A DNA stretch of 30,101 nucleotides, taken from a virus. A program made the position numbers and the translations under genes. The stretch is from the IMG/VR virus record IMGVR_UViG_3300009093_000103, positions 1 to 30,101 of that record. The stretch is one strand, 5' to 3'. Shown in pieces: positions 23,700 through 30,091 of this stretch. The notes beneath the pieces are model-generated. The model did no database searches. It had not been told where the DNA came from and saw only the letters and a program-made list of their open reading frames with translations. Position 1 is the stretch's first letter; every line of letters starts with the position of its first letter.

Positions 23700-23947
23700 C
23701 CACGTTTCGCACGCTAGACGTGATCGAGCTTAACGGCACAAAGCTGCCGATGCGGCTAAAGAACGTGCTCGCGAAATTCGACGCGCTCGCTACGGCGCTG
23801 GGCAAGGATCGCGCGCCGCGCTCTGTGAAAATGTTCGATCGCGACTACCGCGACCTACACGCGCACGTCCGCAGCAAGCACGGCGCGCAGTACGGCGCAG
23901 AGTCCGCGCGCTGGCATGGCCTGCCCTTCGAGCGCGTCAAGCAATGA
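23696..23947 (+). CDS. Small basic protein, unknown
   Basis: 83 residues. MTTFRTLDVIELNGTKLPMR, 'LKNVLAKFDALATALGKDRA', then 'KMFDRDYRDLHAHVRSKHGA'. The 'D-R-D-Y-x-D-L-H' segment is a strand-helix turn. ATGA overlaps with cupin and helicase genes. Basic, so may bind nucleic acid; no family recognised. Confidence 0.7.
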   Translation: MTTFRTLDVIELNGTKLPMRLKNVLAKFDALATALGKDRAPRSVKMFDRDYRDLHAHVRSKHGAQYGAESARWHGLPFERVKQ

Positions 23948-25617
23948 CGGCCGGCACGATCGTGCAGCGGCCTTACGGCCGCGCTGCAATCGACGCGACC
24001 TACAAATTCCTAGACGATCGGAAGGACAACCCGTGCGTTGTCGTGCCGACCGGCGGCGGGAAGTCCGTCATTATGGGCGGCTTCGCGCAAGAGCTGGTGA
24101 CGACGTACGACAACACGCGCGTGTGCGTGCTCGCGCATGTAAAGGAACTCGTCGGCCAGAACGCGGACAAGCTCAAAAAGATTTGGCCTAACGCGCCGAT
24201 CGGCGTCTACTCGGCCGGCTTGAAGCGGCGCGACAGGTTCGAGCCGATCATTTTCGCAAGCATCCAAAGCGTTTACGACAAAGCGCCGTACCTGGGCCGC
24301 TTCGACGTACTCAAGGTCGACGAGTGCCACCGTATACCGCTCAAGGCGGAAGGAACCTATCGGCGTTTCATCGGCGACGCGCTGCGGATCAATCCGAAGC
24401 TCCGCGTGGTCGGTTACACGGCGTCGCCGTGGCGCCTAGGCGGCGGTCCGATCTGCGCACCTGAAAACGTGCTCAACGAGGTTGCCTACGACGTACCGCT
24501 AACGCACCTGATTGACGAGGGCTACTTAGTACGCCCGATCAGCAAGAACGGCGTCGCGCGCCCGGACCTTTCGGACGTGCACATACGCGGCAACGAGTAC
24601 ATAGAGGGCGAAGCGGCAAACGCGATGATGCGCGGCAACCTTGTTGCCCGCGCGTGCGACGAAATCGTGCAGCTCTGCGCGGACCGGCGCGCGTGGATTC
24701 TGTTCGCCTGCAATGTCGCGCACGCCGAGCGCATCCGCGACGAGTTGACCAAGCGCGGGCACCACGGCGCGATCGTGTCGGGCGAGACGCCCTCGACCGT
24801 GCGCGATGCCTATATTGCCGATTTCGCCGCCGGCAAGCTGCGCTATCTCGTCACTGTGAACGTGCTCGCCGAAGGCTACGACGAGCCGCGCATTGATGCC
24901 GTTATCATGCTGCGGCCCACAAAAAGCCCGGTTGTATACACGCAGCAAGTCGGCCGCGGCACGCGCGTAAATTCGAGCCCTGACTTTCACTATCTCGCGA
25001 CGCGCGAGGAACGGCTCGCGGCCATTGCTGGCAGCGTCAAGCCTAACTTTCTCGTGCTCGACTTCGCCGGCAACATCCTTGAGCACGGCCCCGTCGACTG
25101 CATCGTTGTCGAGAAGCCGAAAAAGCGCGGCGACAAGGCGGCGCTCCGCAAGCAACCTGCGAAGGAATGCCCGAAGTGTCACAAGGTGCACGCCGTGCAG
25201 GTCCGCACGTGCGACGAGTGCGGATACGAATGGCCGGCGGCCGAAGCGCGCCACGACGACACGGCAACCGATGCACCGATTTTGTCGACCGAGTTAGCTA
25301 CGCGGCACATAGAGCACAACGTCACGGCCGTGAGCTACGGCAAGTACGAGAAGGAAGGCCGGCCGCCGTCCATGCTCGTGACGTACACGTGCGGGTTCCG
25401 CTGGTTTCGCGAATGGGTCACGTTCGAGCACGGCGGCGAAGCGCGAGCCCGCGCCGTGCAATGGTGGAACGAGCGCAACACGACGCGCGACCTACTCGTG
25501 CCGCGAACCGTCGACGATGCGCTAGAGCAGGCGCAGGACCGCTTGCGCTCGCCTGTTGCGCTCACGGTTAACCACGTCGGCAAGCACGACACAATCGTTG
25601 CGTTTCGCTTCCAATGA
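23944..25617 (+). CDS. DEAD/DEAH-box (SF2) helicase with C-terminal zinc finger
   Basis: 557 residues. Motif I 'VVPTGGGKS' (Lys40), motif II 'VDECH' (126-129), motif III 'GYTASPWR', motif V 'VNVLAEGYDEPRID', motif VI 'QQVGRGTR'. Both RecA-like lobes are complete. After residue 400 comes a four-cysteine zinc finger 'CPKCHKVHAVQVRTCDECG' and a C-terminal alpha-beta domain ending 'HDTIVAFRFQ'. Likely unwinds phage DNA during replication or recombination. It lies on the opposite side of the repressor from the primase-helicase. Confidence 0.93.
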   Translation: MTAGTIVQRPYGRAAIDATYKFLDDRKDNPCVVVPTGGGKSVIMGGFAQELVTTYDNTRVCVLAHVKELVGQNADKLKKIWPNAPIGVYSAGLKRRDRFEPIIFASIQSVYDKAPYLGRFDVLKVDECHRIPLKAEGTYRRFIGDALRINPKLRVVGYTASPWRLGGGPICAPENVLNEVAYDVPLTHLIDEGYLVRPISKNGVARPDLSDVHIRGNEYIEGEAANAMMRGNLVARACDEIVQLCADRRAWILFACNVAHAERIRDELTKRGHHGAIVSGETPSTVRDAYIADFAAGKLRYLVTVNVLAEGYDEPRIDAVIMLRPTKSPVVYTQQVGRGTRVNSSPDFHYLATREERLAAIAGSVKPNFLVLDFAGNILEHGPVDCIVVEKPKKRGDKAALRKQPAKECPKCHKVHAVQVRTCDECGYEWPAAEARHDDTATDAPILSTELATRHIEHNVTAVSYGKYEKEGRPPSMLVTYTCGFRWFREWVTFEHGGEARARAVQWWNERNTTRDLLVPRTVDDALEQAQDRLRSPVALTVNHVGKHDTIVAFRFQ

Positions 25618-26117
25618 CCCGGCGCTACCTACTCGGACTGTTCGCGATCCTCGCCGCCGGCCTCGACATAGCCGAGCCGGCCGAGCTTACCGCCCGCGCG
25701 TGCTTGGCGTTCGAGGGCTACGCCGAAGCGCGTAGCGAGGGCGACGCCGGCATGCGTGCCGTCATGGGCGTAGCGGTCGAGCGCTCGCGCGATCCGCTGC
25801 AGCGCTGGCCTCGTGACGTGTGCGCCGTCGTGCTGCAGCCGCACCAGTTTGCCGGCGTCTTGCGCTGGCGGTCGCTGCCCATGCCGGCGCCGGCCGATCG
25901 GCGAGCCTGGGCGCGCGCCTGGGCCATTGCCGGCGACGTGATCGACCGGCGGCGCGTGTCGCTTTGCGACAGAGCAACCAGTTTTGACCGCGGCGGCCGC
26001 GCTCGCGGGCTCGTACCAGTGTGCAAGCGCGGCGCTCATACCTTCTATATAGAACCGCCCGTGACGGGCTCACAACGTGGAGAAATATACAATGCAATCA
26101 GCGCTCGCACTAAGTAG
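25614..26117 (+). CDS. SleB-type cell-wall hydrolase
   Basis: 167 residues. 'TRRYLLGLFAILAAGLDIAE' is a signal peptide or anchor. The body matches the SleB/Hydrolase_2 family (PF07486): 'EGYAEARSEGDAGMRAVMGV', 'AVERSRDPLQRWPRDVCAVV', 'LQPHQFAGVLRW', 'AWAIAGDVIDRR' and 'FDRGGRARGLVPVCKRGAHT FY' in parts. Glu38 in 'YAEAR' is the expected catalytic residue. It cuts peptidoglycan. Its place inside an early replication operon, far from the lysis cassette, is unusual. ATGA overlap with the helicase gene. Confidence 0.85.
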   Translation: MTRRYLLGLFAILAAGLDIAEPAELTARACLAFEGYAEARSEGDAGMRAVMGVAVERSRDPLQRWPRDVCAVVLQPHQFAGVLRWRSLPMPAPADRRAWARAWAIAGDVIDRRRVSLCDRATSFDRGGRARGLVPVCKRGAHTFYIEPPVTGSQRGEIYNAISARTK

Positions 26118-26859
26118 CTTCAAAGGTGATCCGGTCGACTTGATCGGCGTCGCCGAACGCGTGCCGAATCCGAACGGCGTCGAGGCATTCATAAAACAGG
26201 CGTCGCGTGACATGGGCGCCGTGTTCGTTCGCTTGGCAACGCGGCTGCGCACCGCGGAACTCAAGGGCGACGAGCTGCGGTTTCAGGTCGGTGCGTTGAG
26301 CCTTGCGCGCGACGCCGACGCCGAAACGATTCGCAACCTTCGGCGCGAGCTGTCAACGCCGCACATTCGCGTCGCCGTCGACGTGCGCAATACGAAAGCC
26401 TACGACGATTTGTCGTTTGAGTGCTTCGAGCTGCGCACGCAGCGCAACACGCTGCAACAGCGCAACGAGGCCCAGGCGGCAACGATCGGTAACTATCAGC
26501 GTCGCGACGACGAGAATAACCATAAGCTCGCGCGGCTCGGCGTGCTCATGTCGCAGGCCACGCAAGAGCTGTCGCGGCGCCAGGAGATAATTAACCGCGC
26601 CCACGAGTGCGACCGGATCAATCGCGAGCAGTTCGAGAAGCGCGGAGTTTTGTTGCAGGCCGTGAACGCGCAGTGCGAAAAGGGCGCCGCGCTGCTGCAG
26701 GCGTGCAACGAGGTCAACACGCGGCTTCGTGGCGACGTGGCGGCGCGCGACGAGGAAGTAGCCCGGCTGTCGAAGCTGGTCGACTCGCTCCGTGCATCCA
26801 ACAGGCGGCTGCGTACGACCACGCTTGCGGCCGCACCGAAGGCGAAGGCCCGCAAGTGA
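26092..26859 (+). CDS. Coiled-coil protein, unknown
   Basis: 255 residues. Apart from an N-terminal 30 residues ('QSALALSSFKGDPVDLIGVA') nearly all of it is heptad-rich helix (about 55-240; e.g. 'ECFELRTQRNTLQQRNEAQA', 'EVARLSKLVDSLRASNRRLR') with a basic end 'AAPKAKARK'. The start has GGAG and ATATACA before ATG at 26092, overlapping the SleB gene by 26 bp. It could be a structural or DNA-organising protein; nothing more can be said. Confidence 0.75.
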   Translation: MQSALALSSFKGDPVDLIGVAERVPNPNGVEAFIKQASRDMGAVFVRLATRLRTAELKGDELRFQVGALSLARDADAETIRNLRRELSTPHIRVAVDVRNTKAYDDLSFECFELRTQRNTLQQRNEAQAATIGNYQRRDDENNHKLARLGVLMSQATQELSRRQEIINRAHECDRINREQFEKRGVLLQAVNAQCEKGAALLQACNEVNTRLRGDVAARDEEVARLSKLVDSLRASNRRLRTTTLAAAPKAKARK

Positions 26860-27137
26860 TCGAGGTTGCCGCAATCGTCGACAAGCTCGACGAGCTGCTA
26901 CAGGCGACGCGCGCGGGTGCAATCCCCGTGCGCGAGCGCTGGCTCGACGCTGCCGGCGTCGGTGCGATCCTGGGGCGCGAGCCGCGCTACGTGCTCGAAC
27001 GCCTCGCCTGCCGGCCGGACTTTCCCAAGCCGTTCCCTGACGGGCAACCGCGCTGGCTCGCTGGCGAGGTCATGGATTGGGCATTGGAGTACCGGCGCGA
27101 ATTCGAGAAGACCGGCCGCAAAAGGCGCGCTGCTTAG
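26856..27137 (+). CDS. AlpA/excisionase-like regulator
   Basis: 93 residues. GTG start overlapping the preceding stop as GTGA (26856-26859). 'VRERWLDAAGVGAILGREPR', 'YVLERLACRPDFPKPFPDGQ' and 'PRWLAGEVMDWALEYRREFE' form the winged-helix of the AlpA/MerR-like excisionase group. These proteins bend att DNA and direct the integrase towards excision, or switch integrase on. It is the last gene of the right early operon and the nearest regulator to the integrase; it meets the cargo operon tail to tail with 4 bp overlap. Confidence 0.82.
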   Translation: MIEVAAIVDKLDELLQATRAGAIPVRERWLDAAGVGAILGREPRYVLERLACRPDFPKPFPDGQPRWLAGEVMDWALEYRREFEKTGRKRRAA

Positions 27138-27604
27138 TCTGGCTGCGAGCGACGCTGCACTACAGTCTTGTTTGTTATTCGCCTGTTTATCTTCTCTTTC
27201 CAAGCCTTCTGCTTTGTCGAGAGTTTTCTTTTGAATCTAGTTTCCATTAAAAACTTGTACTCGCTTTCGTAGATGTAACCGAACCTGTAAGAGTGCTCTA
27301 TTAAATCCTCGTTGGCATTCGCTGAGCTATCTTTAGCGATTCGCTTTAGCCCGTCGAATAACGCGCCAGTTTCTATGCCAATAAACCTATTTATGCAGAC
27401 GTTGCCGACAAACGTCCTGTTGCCATTAAGACGATTTTCTATATAGCAGTGTTCTTTGATTTCCTGACTACACGGGCAGTTATCGAATTCCTCGCTAATC
27501 TCTACACCGATCAAGTGCCATTCCTTGCGCGCAACTTCAAAATTCTTCGCTACCGAAAGCGGAAGGATATGGGCTTTAAGTTGCTCCAAGTTGTGCTCTG
27601 ACAT
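27134..27604 (-). CDS. Cargo gene 4: cysteine-motif protein, unknown
   Basis: 156 residues. 'NFEVARKEWHLIGVEISEEF', then Cys43-x-Cys45-x7-Cys53 ('NCPCSQEIKEHCYIENRLNG'), 'VGNVCINRFIGIE' (Cys70), and a basic C-terminus 'RRITNKTVVQRRSQPD'. The Cys-x-Cys...Cys...'V-G-N-V-C-I-N-R-F' pattern recurs in uncharacterised bacterial and mobile-element proteins and looks like a treble-clef-type zinc finger; that is my recollection, not a search. The AT-rich block has 38% GC in two 60-base samples (27241-27300, 28441-28500), against 75% at 26941-27000. Last gene of the four. Confidence 0.75.
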   Translation of the reverse strand: MSEHNLEQLKAHILPLSVAKNFEVARKEWHLIGVEISEEFDNCPCSQEIKEHCYIENRLNGNRTFVGNVCINRFIGIETGALFDGLKRIAKDSSANANEDLIEHSYRFGYIYESEYKFLMETRFKRKLSTKQKAWKEKINRRITNKTVVQRRSQPD

Positions 27605-27627
27605 AGCACCCGAGCCTGTAGAAACGA

Positions 27628-28059
27628 TCAATGCGAAATGTTTACAACATCCTTAACGACATTCAGCGCCTGGAAAGCAACACCGTCCAGCTCGCCTTGC
27701 ATGTCGCCGATAAAGCAAATTTTTGACTCTGCCGGCGCCCGCATCACGGCCGCGCGAACCTTGTCACGTATCGGTGTCGCCCCTACTTTCAACTCCTGAA
27801 ATATCAAGGCGGTTTGATCGCCCATCGGTAGGTTACTAAGGGCTTCCAGTGCGCCGCGGCCGACGAGTGTTAAATGCGGTTCGCCGTCAACTATTGCGCC
27901 GCCGGACAGACAGCAGTATACTTTTTTATCTTTGAACTTTGTTTCAAAGACCATTAAGTTAATTTGTTTGTCTGTCGGCAATCTCGCTGTCCGCTGAATC
28001 TCTGCGAGCGTACCAGCCTCGGGCTTCGTGCCGTGGATCATCTTTGACGAAAGCGACAT
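27628..28059 (-). CDS. Cargo gene 3: unknown
   Basis: 143 residues. MSLSSKMIHGTKPEAGTLAE (Met7 is an alternative start), 'KQINLMVFETKFKDKKVYCC', 'LSGGAIVDGEPHLTLVGRGA', 'MGDQTALIFQELKVG' and 'SKICFIGDMQGELDG'. An alpha-beta fold is likely; two adjacent Cys. I do not recognise a family. It starts 5 nt after the stop of cargo gene 2, so the two are surely co-translated. AT-rich codon choice unlike the phage core. Confidence 0.72.
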   Translation of the reverse strand: MSLSSKMIHGTKPEAGTLAEIQRTARLPTDKQINLMVFETKFKDKKVYCCLSGGAIVDGEPHLTLVGRGALEALSNLPMGDQTALIFQELKVGATPIRDKVRAAVMRAPAESKICFIGDMQGELDGVAFQALNVVKDVVNISH

Positions 28060-28064
28060 AACGA

Positions 28065-28439
28065 TTAGGTCCGCTTGTCTTTCCTGGGGAACAGTATCAG
28101 ATTCGGAGCCTTATGCTCGATCGGCTGATGCTTGCGGCGCGTTAACTTGCGTCGCGTTAATAACTCGAAGCCCACCAACCTAGACCAAGGAATGCGATAA
28201 ACGCTGTCAACCTCGTCCGTATGATGCCAAAGTATCAGCATGCCGGGCGAATTGAAATTTATTTGTAGTGCCTCACGGTCTCCGGCGATCCTAAAACCGC
28301 CCTCGAATAAAAAAGCTATACCAAGATGTTCACGAGGTACAAAAACCTCGCCAGCGCCTTCGTAGTCGCCCGTGTCGAACTCTATAAAGTGCTTGAGGTG
28401 TCCTCGCCAATACTTCTCTTGCGCTGACTGTTTCATCAT
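28065..28439 (-). CDS. Cargo gene 2: unknown
   Basis: 124 residues. 'MMKQSAQEKYWRGHLKHFIE', 'VFVPREHLGIAFLFEGGFRI', 'SPGMLILWHHTDEVDSVYRI' and a very basic end 'FELLTRRKLTRRKHQPIEHK'. Beta-rich core with His-His; a basic tail that may touch nucleic acid. No family recognised. Four-base gap to cargo gene 1. Confidence 0.72.
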   Translation of the reverse strand: MMKQSAQEKYWRGHLKHFIEFDTGDYEGAGEVFVPREHLGIAFLFEGGFRIAGDREALQINFNSPGMLILWHHTDEVDSVYRIPWSRLVGFELLTRRKLTRRKHQPIEHKAPNLILFPRKDKRT

Positions 28440-28443
28440 CTTG

Positions 28444-28890
28444 TCAATATTTCTTTGGATATTCCGCGATGATACGCTTTAGCACGTCTGGAATATAAGG
28501 ATAGTATTCGTTCGCGTCGCCGAAATTCTCTTGCAAATCTGAATCGCCAAATAAGCGCCGCGCTTCCTCGTAGTATGGAACCTGACACCTGCGAAAGAAG
28601 TCTACGAATTCGTCTATGTCAGTAACTTTGCAGTAGGGGTTTTCCGGGTTGTGTTTTAATGGCCCAACACTGAGAAAAGAAAGCAAATACGTTGCGCCCT
28701 TTTCGCCAACAAATTCCTTAAGCGCATTTGACGCGACGTAGCCCTTGATATCGCATTTTCTTTGGTGGATTATCTTGAAGCCGTGATATTTAAGAATATC
28801 GTGAGACTGCCAAATAACGTAGGCTTCGTCTATGTCGTCAATGACATTCCCGCAAACGTCGCAGTACCATTTAGTAAGCGGCTTATCCAT
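28444..28890 (-). CDS. Cargo gene 1: zinc-finger-start protein, unknown
   Basis: 148 residues. Zinc-binding set at the start: Cys10-x-x-Cys13 ('WYCDVCGNVI') with His42 and Cys46 ('IIHQRKCDIKG'). Then 'ATYLLSFLSVGPLKHNPENP', 'DIDEFVDFFRRCQVPYYEEA' and 'DVLKRIIAEYPKKY'. It resembles unnamed proteins with an N-terminal zinc ribbon and an acidic helical end. SD AAGGGACG precedes the ATG at 28890. It starts 17 nt after the integrase stop, so it may be co-transcribed with the integrase. Confidence 0.74.
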   Translation of the reverse strand: MDKPLTKWYCDVCGNVIDDIDEAYVIWQSHDILKYHGFKIIHQRKCDIKGYVASNALKEFVGEKGATYLLSFLSVGPLKHNPENPYCKVTDIDEFVDFFRRCQVPYYEEARRLFGDSDLQENFGDANEYYPYIPDVLKRIIAEYPKKY

Positions 28891-28907: not shown

Positions 28908-29876
28908 TTAGTCCAGCCGTCCGGCGATTTCTGTAGCTGTCGCGTTGTAGTAAATCATTAGCGACTTCAAGTCACGATGCCCGACCATTCGCGCGAGGTC
29001 AAGTACGTCCACCTTGCGCGCCAGTCGCGTTATTCCCTCGTGCCTCGTATCGTGAAAATGCATATCGACTATTCCGGCGCGGTCGCGAGCCTTGCGGAAA
29101 AGAGTGCTGATTGAATCCGCCGACACGTTAAAAACTCGCTCGTCATCCTGCGGCAACAGCTTGAGCAAACGAATCGCCTCGCGCGACAGCGCAACGTCGC
29201 GCGCGTCTCCGTTTTTCGATTTCGGTATGTGAGCGCAGCGGGCGTCAAGGTCCGTGTGCGCCCAGGTGAGGGCCGCAATCTCGCCCTCGCGCATGGCTGT
29301 CTCGATCGCGAACCGGAAGGCCACGGCGACGCGCTGTCCGGGCCGCTGCGGCGGTCCGCCGTCGAACCCGAGCGCGAGGCAAACCCGGCGCGCCTCGTCG
29401 TCTGACACGCGGCGCGTGCGCGGCTTGGCGCCCTTCGGTCTGTCGACGCCGGCAAGCGGGTTGACCTTGAGCCAGCGCCACGGCTTTACGCACGCCTTGA
29501 GCACGGATTGCAGCAGGTTCATTTCGCGCCGCACGGTCGAGTCGGCAACTTCCTTGCGTCGACGGTCCCGCCACTGCTCAAGGTCCGCGTCGGTCAGGTT
29601 GGCGAGACGACGCGCGCCGATAGGATCGCGCGCGAGCGCGGCGAGTCGTAGCTTCTCCCAATGGGCGCCGCCCTTGCTCGGCGAAATCTCGATCGCGTAC
29701 GTGTCGCACGCGTCCTTAAGCGTCTTGTCTGGCAGCTTGTCGCCGCGTAGAACGGACTCGCGTTCGAGCGCCCAGGTTGCCGCGGCCGCGCGCGTTGCGA
29801 AGCTGTCAGACTCGCGCACGCCGTTGCGCTCGACTTCCGCCCGCCACCTGCTACCGCGTTTACGTATGTACGCCAT
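28908..29876 (-). CDS. int: Tyrosine-type site-specific integrase
   Basis: 322 residues. Catalytic set: Arg196 ('AMREGEIAALTW'), Lys221 ('PKSKNGDARDVAL'), His275-x-x-Arg278 ('HFHDTRHEGI'), His300 ('MVGHRDLKSLMIYY') and Tyr309/310. N-terminal arm-binding domain: 'MAYIRKRGSRWRAEVERNGV', followed by a SAM-like core-binding domain. I use the ATG at 29876 because a longer frame to 30050 would run through the terminator and tRNA. It integrates the phage at the 3' end of the tRNA-Thr gene 142 bp away. No Shine-Dalgarno is clear. Confidence 0.95.
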   Translation of the reverse strand: MAYIRKRGSRWRAEVERNGVRESDSFATRAAAATWALERESVLRGDKLPDKTLKDACDTYAIEISPSKGGAHWEKLRLAALARDPIGARRLANLTDADLEQWRDRRRKEVADSTVRREMNLLQSVLKACVKPWRWLKVNPLAGVDRPKGAKPRTRRVSDDEARRVCLALGFDGGPPQRPGQRVAVAFRFAIETAMREGEIAALTWAHTDLDARCAHIPKSKNGDARDVALSREAIRLLKLLPQDDERVFNVSADSISTLFRKARDRAGIVDMHFHDTRHEGITRLARKVDVLDLARMVGHRDLKSLMIYYNATATEIAGRLD

Positions 29877-29945
29877 TGGCGGGATTTTGGCGGGCGATAT
29901 GCGGGAAAGCAAGGCGAATTGAGGGAAGCCGCGCCGATCGCAGGC

Positions 29946-30018: not shown

Positions 30019-30062
30019 TGCCGGAGAAGGGAATCGAACCCCCGACCCACGCATTACGAATG
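30019..30062 (-). other. Putative attachment site (att core) in 3' half of tRNA-Thr
   Basis: The integrase gene lies 3' to the tRNA, the usual place when the crossover is in the tRNA's 3' half. The second copy, expected at the far left end of the prophage, is outside the window, so the length of the core is not known. Confidence 0.6.
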
Positions 30063-30091
30063 CGTTGCTCTACCAGCTGAGCTACCCCGGC
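30019..30091 (-). tRNA. tRNA-Thr (anticodon CGU)
   Basis: 73 nt on the minus strand. Acceptor GCCGGGG pairs with CTCCGGC (one G-U pair). The anticodon arm is ACGCA-TTCGTAA-TGCGT, with CGT as anticodon. The T-arm carries GGTTCGATTCC and the discriminator is A at 30019. The CCA end is not encoded: after the discriminator comes TTCC. It is the attachment site of the prophage. Confidence 0.93.

Follow-up and report, generated by a model that had tools for sequence, protein, structure and literature searches.

It has been described for the Staphylococcus aureus prophage 80alpha that an opposing gene, once annotated as xis, shuts off a defence gene at induction (the Tha/Ith pair, PMC11087260). In CapH/CapP-controlled immune operons, CapP is reportedly activated by single-stranded DNA and then cleaves the repressor CapH (PMC13373217, citing Lau et al. 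2022). The locus described here lies in a window of 30,101 nucleotides, which is the whole stretch of viral DNA that was analysed, and consists of four open minus-strand frames, A, B, C and D (28890-27134), between an integrase gene (int) and a convergent xis-like gene. Its arrangement is no more than similar to that of Tha/Ith, and membership is not claimed: both have an accessory gene among the lysogeny genes of a prophage together with a small opposing xis-type gene, but Tha is an RNase of the HEPN type, none of which was recognised in the block, and ith lies antisense inside the Tha operon (PMC11087260), whereas in the window no inhibitor gene has this position and the xis-like gene overlaps D by 4 nt only, tail to tail. 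The P2/P4 phage hotspots of antiviral genes, as far as the account in PMC9122126 goes, likewise hold accessory genes at a fixed spot of temperate phages, but these are different phages and the spot is different from that in the window. Homologues of D often stand directly behind CapH- and CapP-like genes, whereas D of the window has no adjacent CapH or CapP. Similarly, D homologues adjoin GajA, KwaB, E1-E2 or ThiF genes in the Gabija, Kiwa and E1-E2/ThiF loci represented in PADLOC, but none of the core proteins of these systems is in the block, and D is a companion rather than a core part of them.

There is no known defence system in the block. The products of A-D have no match among the known anti-phage core proteins of PADLOC-DB 2.0.0 at E up to 1, and the pairs GajA and GajB, KwaA and KwaB, and a CD-NTase plus effector are absent among A-D and the adjacent genes at 26077-27137. 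Pfam, NCBIfam and PADLOC gave nothing credible for any of the four, PHROGs matches A alone, and a sequence search of the PDB with A, B, C and D returned no credible match.

The integrase on one side of the block is a tyrosine integrase of 323 aa from an ATG at 29879 (28908-29879, minus strand; Pfam Phage_integrase, 1e-21; phrog_1, 2e-60), with a longer GTG open reading frame reaching 30050 as an alternative. A tRNA-Thr(CGT) called by ARAGORN beside int (30019-30091, minus strand) is, from its position, the probable attachment site. On the other side, the small helix-turn-helix gene at 26856-27137 (plus strand; phrog_4996, 3e-7) has relatives of 24-35% identity that adjoin int in related prophages, which bears out its earlier assignment as xis-like. 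Two further features of the window may be mentioned here. A tRNA-Leu also called by ARAGORN (26848-26939) lies inside coding sequence and is probably a false call, and a 557-aa DEAD/ResIII-like helicase (23944-25617), which partially matches type IV restriction models (PADLOC, 5.7e-24), is probably an ordinary phage helicase.

The description of A-D as four packed minus-strand genes holds, since all are open reading frames; the gaps A/B and B/C are 4 and 5 nt as the earlier note gave them, and the gap C/D is 23 nt instead of 24. A recount of the G+C values that had been obtained by hand (23, 23 and 45 of 60) gave identical numbers. The claim that the composition of the block is far under that of the phage core is also sustained, with a G+C of 0.472 in the block as against a minimum of 0.562 among stretches of equal length (1757 bp) taken from window positions 1 to about 27050. 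The GC3 of the block genes is 0.52-0.58, which is lower than that of int (0.76) and than the mean of 14 other open reading frames (0.70). Thus, the block has the foreign base composition expected of a prophage cargo (moron) cassette. A second contig carries the block in identical sequence and therefore adds no independent evidence for it.

The int-xis junction itself indicates an insertion. Among 148 genomes of one genus, reached via a Paraburkholderia locus, 11 have an integrase relative of 42-49% identity, and in seven of these 11 a xis-like gene, matched by weak similarity to that of the window (E 4e-10 to 0.003), adjoins int on the opposite strand, six of them having no room for cargo. The two genes overlap by 4 nt in L096/L133, the xis-like similarity begins 6 nt from int in L089, about 15 nt in L095/L134 and about 57 nt in L091 and L092, while in L098 it overlaps int and in L094 it lies about 247 nt away. 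The junction is therefore empty in L089, L095 and L096 and nearly empty in L091, L092 and L098, and the earlier proposal of cargo at this place agrees with what is seen in the related prophages. In the window the stops of D and the xis-like gene overlap by 4 nt, tail to tail, in the same manner as int and xis of the relatives. Because the int and xis genes of the relatives adjoin tail to tail with almost no gap, the block is best seen as a foreign insert of 1.76 kb at a natural junction, and its reading as a cargo cassette is well supported.

Gene A (28444-28890, minus strand, 148 aa) starts 17 nt past the int stop behind an SD-like AAGGGA, and belongs to the phrog_35745 family, for which PHROGs gives no function; the match covers residues 8-140, that is 133 residues and most of the protein (8e-21). 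The residues of its CxxC...H...C zinc-type site, C10, C13, H42 and C46, are at the positions previously reported and do not vary among the four diverged family members that were aligned. Homologues occur in Gordonia phages near int (39% identity), on plasmids of Rhodococcus and Paenibacillus, and in further phage contigs, where, read by eye, they apparently precede terminase genes. Gene B (28065-28439, minus strand, 124 aa) is an orphan: no homologue was found in phages, plasmids or viral contigs, save the identical second contig, nor in 399 + 198 genomes or the family libraries, and it has no similarity to the gene of equal length that follows A in L086. Gene C (27628-28059, minus strand, 143 aa) belongs to a phage/plasmid accessory family with SGG and ICFxGDMxGELDG motifs, with homologues of 45-52% identity in three phage contigs (L005, L083, L084) and in Pseudomonas and Pantoea plasmids, and relatives also in Aeromonas plasmids; its structure model (pLDDT 81) found no fold match in the PDB. 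A and C are thus genes scattered among phages and plasmids, and A, B and C may be unrelated to defence.

Gene D (27134-27604, minus strand) encodes 156 aa from an ATG, a TTG at 27631 being an alternative start that would overlap C. It belongs to a CPC...C...C family in which C44, C46 and C54, the Cys-x-Cys...Cys pattern noticed earlier, are invariant in all 56 sequences, and C71 is kept in 55, the exception being an Arg in L032:4419-4889. D of the window has all four cysteines and the conserved core residues, and is 75% identical to its homologue in L019. The C-terminal region is basic, with 14 K+R against 5 D+E in the last 49 residues. The family is absent from Pfam, NCBIfam, PHROGs and PADLOC, and keyword literature searches, which cannot prove absence, retrieved no paper on it. 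The model of D, a confident one (pLDDT 91.8), has three strands followed by helices, and a fold search gave no PDB match at E below 1, solved zinc proteins included. Against viral models there were two matches below 0.001, to iridescent virus and pithovirus proteins of unknown function, which we regard as a lead only because their TM-scores are just 0.21-0.42. D is rare and patchy: of 398 genomes drawn evenly from the phylum three have it, one of these three being the centre chosen for holding D, and among plasmids it is found on 90 records, most of them conjugative.

A search with D retrieved 54 loci in genomes and nine in viruses, and in the genomes D often lies in defence islands, alongside CapH/CapP regulators or genes of the Gabija, Kiwa, ThiF/DUF6527 or E1-E2 kind. 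CapH/CapP-type genes are directly upstream of D in 11 of the 54, plus one locus with a gene between, and six of the CapH/CapP-D loci adjoin a CBASS-like nucleotidyltransferase/HNH set, whose homologue in L011 is a SAVED-HNH effector (3.5e-162). We know of no description of D as a component of CapH/CapP operons. GajA adjoins D in L034 (6.5e-241), L061 (6.2e-188) and L026, KwaB lies 26 nt upstream of the D match in L055 (3.1e-117), and ThiF/DUF6527 genes (L027, L031, L042) or E1-E2 genes (L050/L071) stand beside it elsewhere. Altogether one of these genes is next to D in at least 22 of the 54 loci, and about half have no recognised defence gene immediately adjacent among those tested for. This context is common but not universal in the family, and D of the window does not share it.

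Matches to PADLOC families, counted at 1e-5 and inflated by redundant models such as those of GajA, fell from 476 near D (150 genes within 1.3 kb) to 208 at 5-8 kb (150 genes) and 47 at distant sites of the same genomes (134 genes), where only one member per cluster was kept in the near and middle sets, the distant control was unthinned, and this control consists of ordinary chromosomal or plasmid DNA and not of other accessory regions. The gradient indicates an island and no function. In the tree of D, which has many weak branches, the CapHP context needs five changes and eight contexts need 12, which suggests repeated joining of D to its contexts. The proximity of D to defence genes can also be hitchhiking, and D is linked to no single partner. 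Nevertheless, its neighbourhood supports D as a candidate new defence-associated family.

The phage loci are of another kind. D begins right behind int in L008 and L080, the latter continuing with a primase-helicase and a DNA polymerase. In L077 the genes after D encode thymidylate synthase, a helicase and a polymerase, and in L074 it lies downstream of NinG and an endonuclease. L008, L077 and L080, which appear from gene content to be marine phage contigs, have D close behind int, with replication genes after it if the contig extends that far. It is mainly because of these replication and recombination neighbourhoods that D may be supposed to act on nucleic acid.

The earlier note proposed that the four genes form one candidate defence or conversion system. 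Their tight packing, common low G+C and same strand would agree with an obligate four-component system of a new type, but homologues of A, B and C are beside D in none of the 54 genome loci or the viral loci, the identical second contig excepted, and the relatives of A, C and D are in unrelated elements and never together. A conserved four-gene module is thereby rejected, and since A, C and D occur without one another and none of the others adjoins D, the four-gene system is unsupported and we consider it very improbable; this is not a new four-part defence system. The neighbourhood comparison that had been suggested as a check shows that the four do not travel together. The relatives are unlinked, one half of what had been named as speaking against the proposal, but they are not housekeeping genes, which was the other half. 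What survives of the defence idea is circumstantial and concerns D alone, through its relatives beside CapH/CapP, Gabija, Kiwa, ThiF/DUF6527 and E1-E2 genes. The block could also be passive low-GC DNA caught at the int-xis junction, decaying and of no benefit. Its composition, which is unlike the phage core, and the orphan B would be consistent with this, but the four frames are all open and packed end to end, A keeps CxxC...H...C, C keeps ICFIGDMQGELDG, and D keeps four cysteines and other invariant residues, and we find junk an improbable explanation.

It could also be argued that D, and the block with it, serves the DNA metabolism or counter-defence of the phage itself, as a replication or recombination accessory that defence islands have acquired too. 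The marine phage contigs, which place D between int and primase-helicase or DNA polymerase genes, beside thymidylate synthase, or behind NinG and an endonuclease, speak for this; however, bacterial genomes show D beside many defence systems, and D of the window is placed with int, away from the replication genes. On balance such a role seems rather unlikely. The reading that we lean towards, and hold to be somewhat probable, is a lysogenic-conversion cassette of separately acquired genes in which D would be a zinc-dependent, nucleic-acid-binding accessory of defence. As a whole, the block is probably carried for protection and does not make up one machine of four parts.

In the cassette reading, four separately acquired mobile genes would have settled where int meets the convergent xis-like gene in a temperate phage. 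As the block is downstream of int on the same strand, with a gap of 17 nt, A-D are probably made together with int in the lysogen; a scan for promoters and terminators, in which promoter-like sites were no more numerous than in shuffled sequence, gave nothing exceeding shuffles and no minus-strand promoter ahead of A. On induction, opposing transcription from xis would tend to switch the block off. D may recognise DNA made during phage replication and support, prime or widen defence, and phages that keep D in their replication modules may use the same binding for their own DNA. The position of D behind CapP-like genes as well as in phage replication modules would fit a binder of DNA made by infection.

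A bolder version, tentative and in our view somewhat unlikely, is that D, the founder of an undescribed family with a fold unseen in the PDB, is a plug-in helper common to unrelated defence systems (Gabija, Kiwa, CBASS with CapH/CapP, ubiquitin-like operons) and to phage replication modules, and that the prophage has it as a protective gene acting on its own. A small protein recurring beside many unrelated defence systems and missing from the searched libraries would indicate a shared step, for instance the handling of phage DNA, and the clean single-gene contexts of D make this idea testable. In the prophage D is found away from bacterial islands, at the int-xis position that is empty in related phages.

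Some other contexts of D can be added. In a rhizobial set (L011:772-5483, L025, L033, L037, L040, L047 and L057) a CBASS-like nucleotidyltransferase, a 163-aa gene and an HNH effector (SAVED-HNH in L011) are divergent from HTH-ImmA/IrrE-D, with D as the third gene of the CapHP operon. On two plasmids (L013:2524-6896 and L014:1552-5887, the latter IncT) a distant relative of D is placed between 1130-aa and 150-aa genes of unknown function. Finally, in L039 and L056 D immediately follows a DUF6119 gene (Pfam PF19614, 5e-91 in L056).
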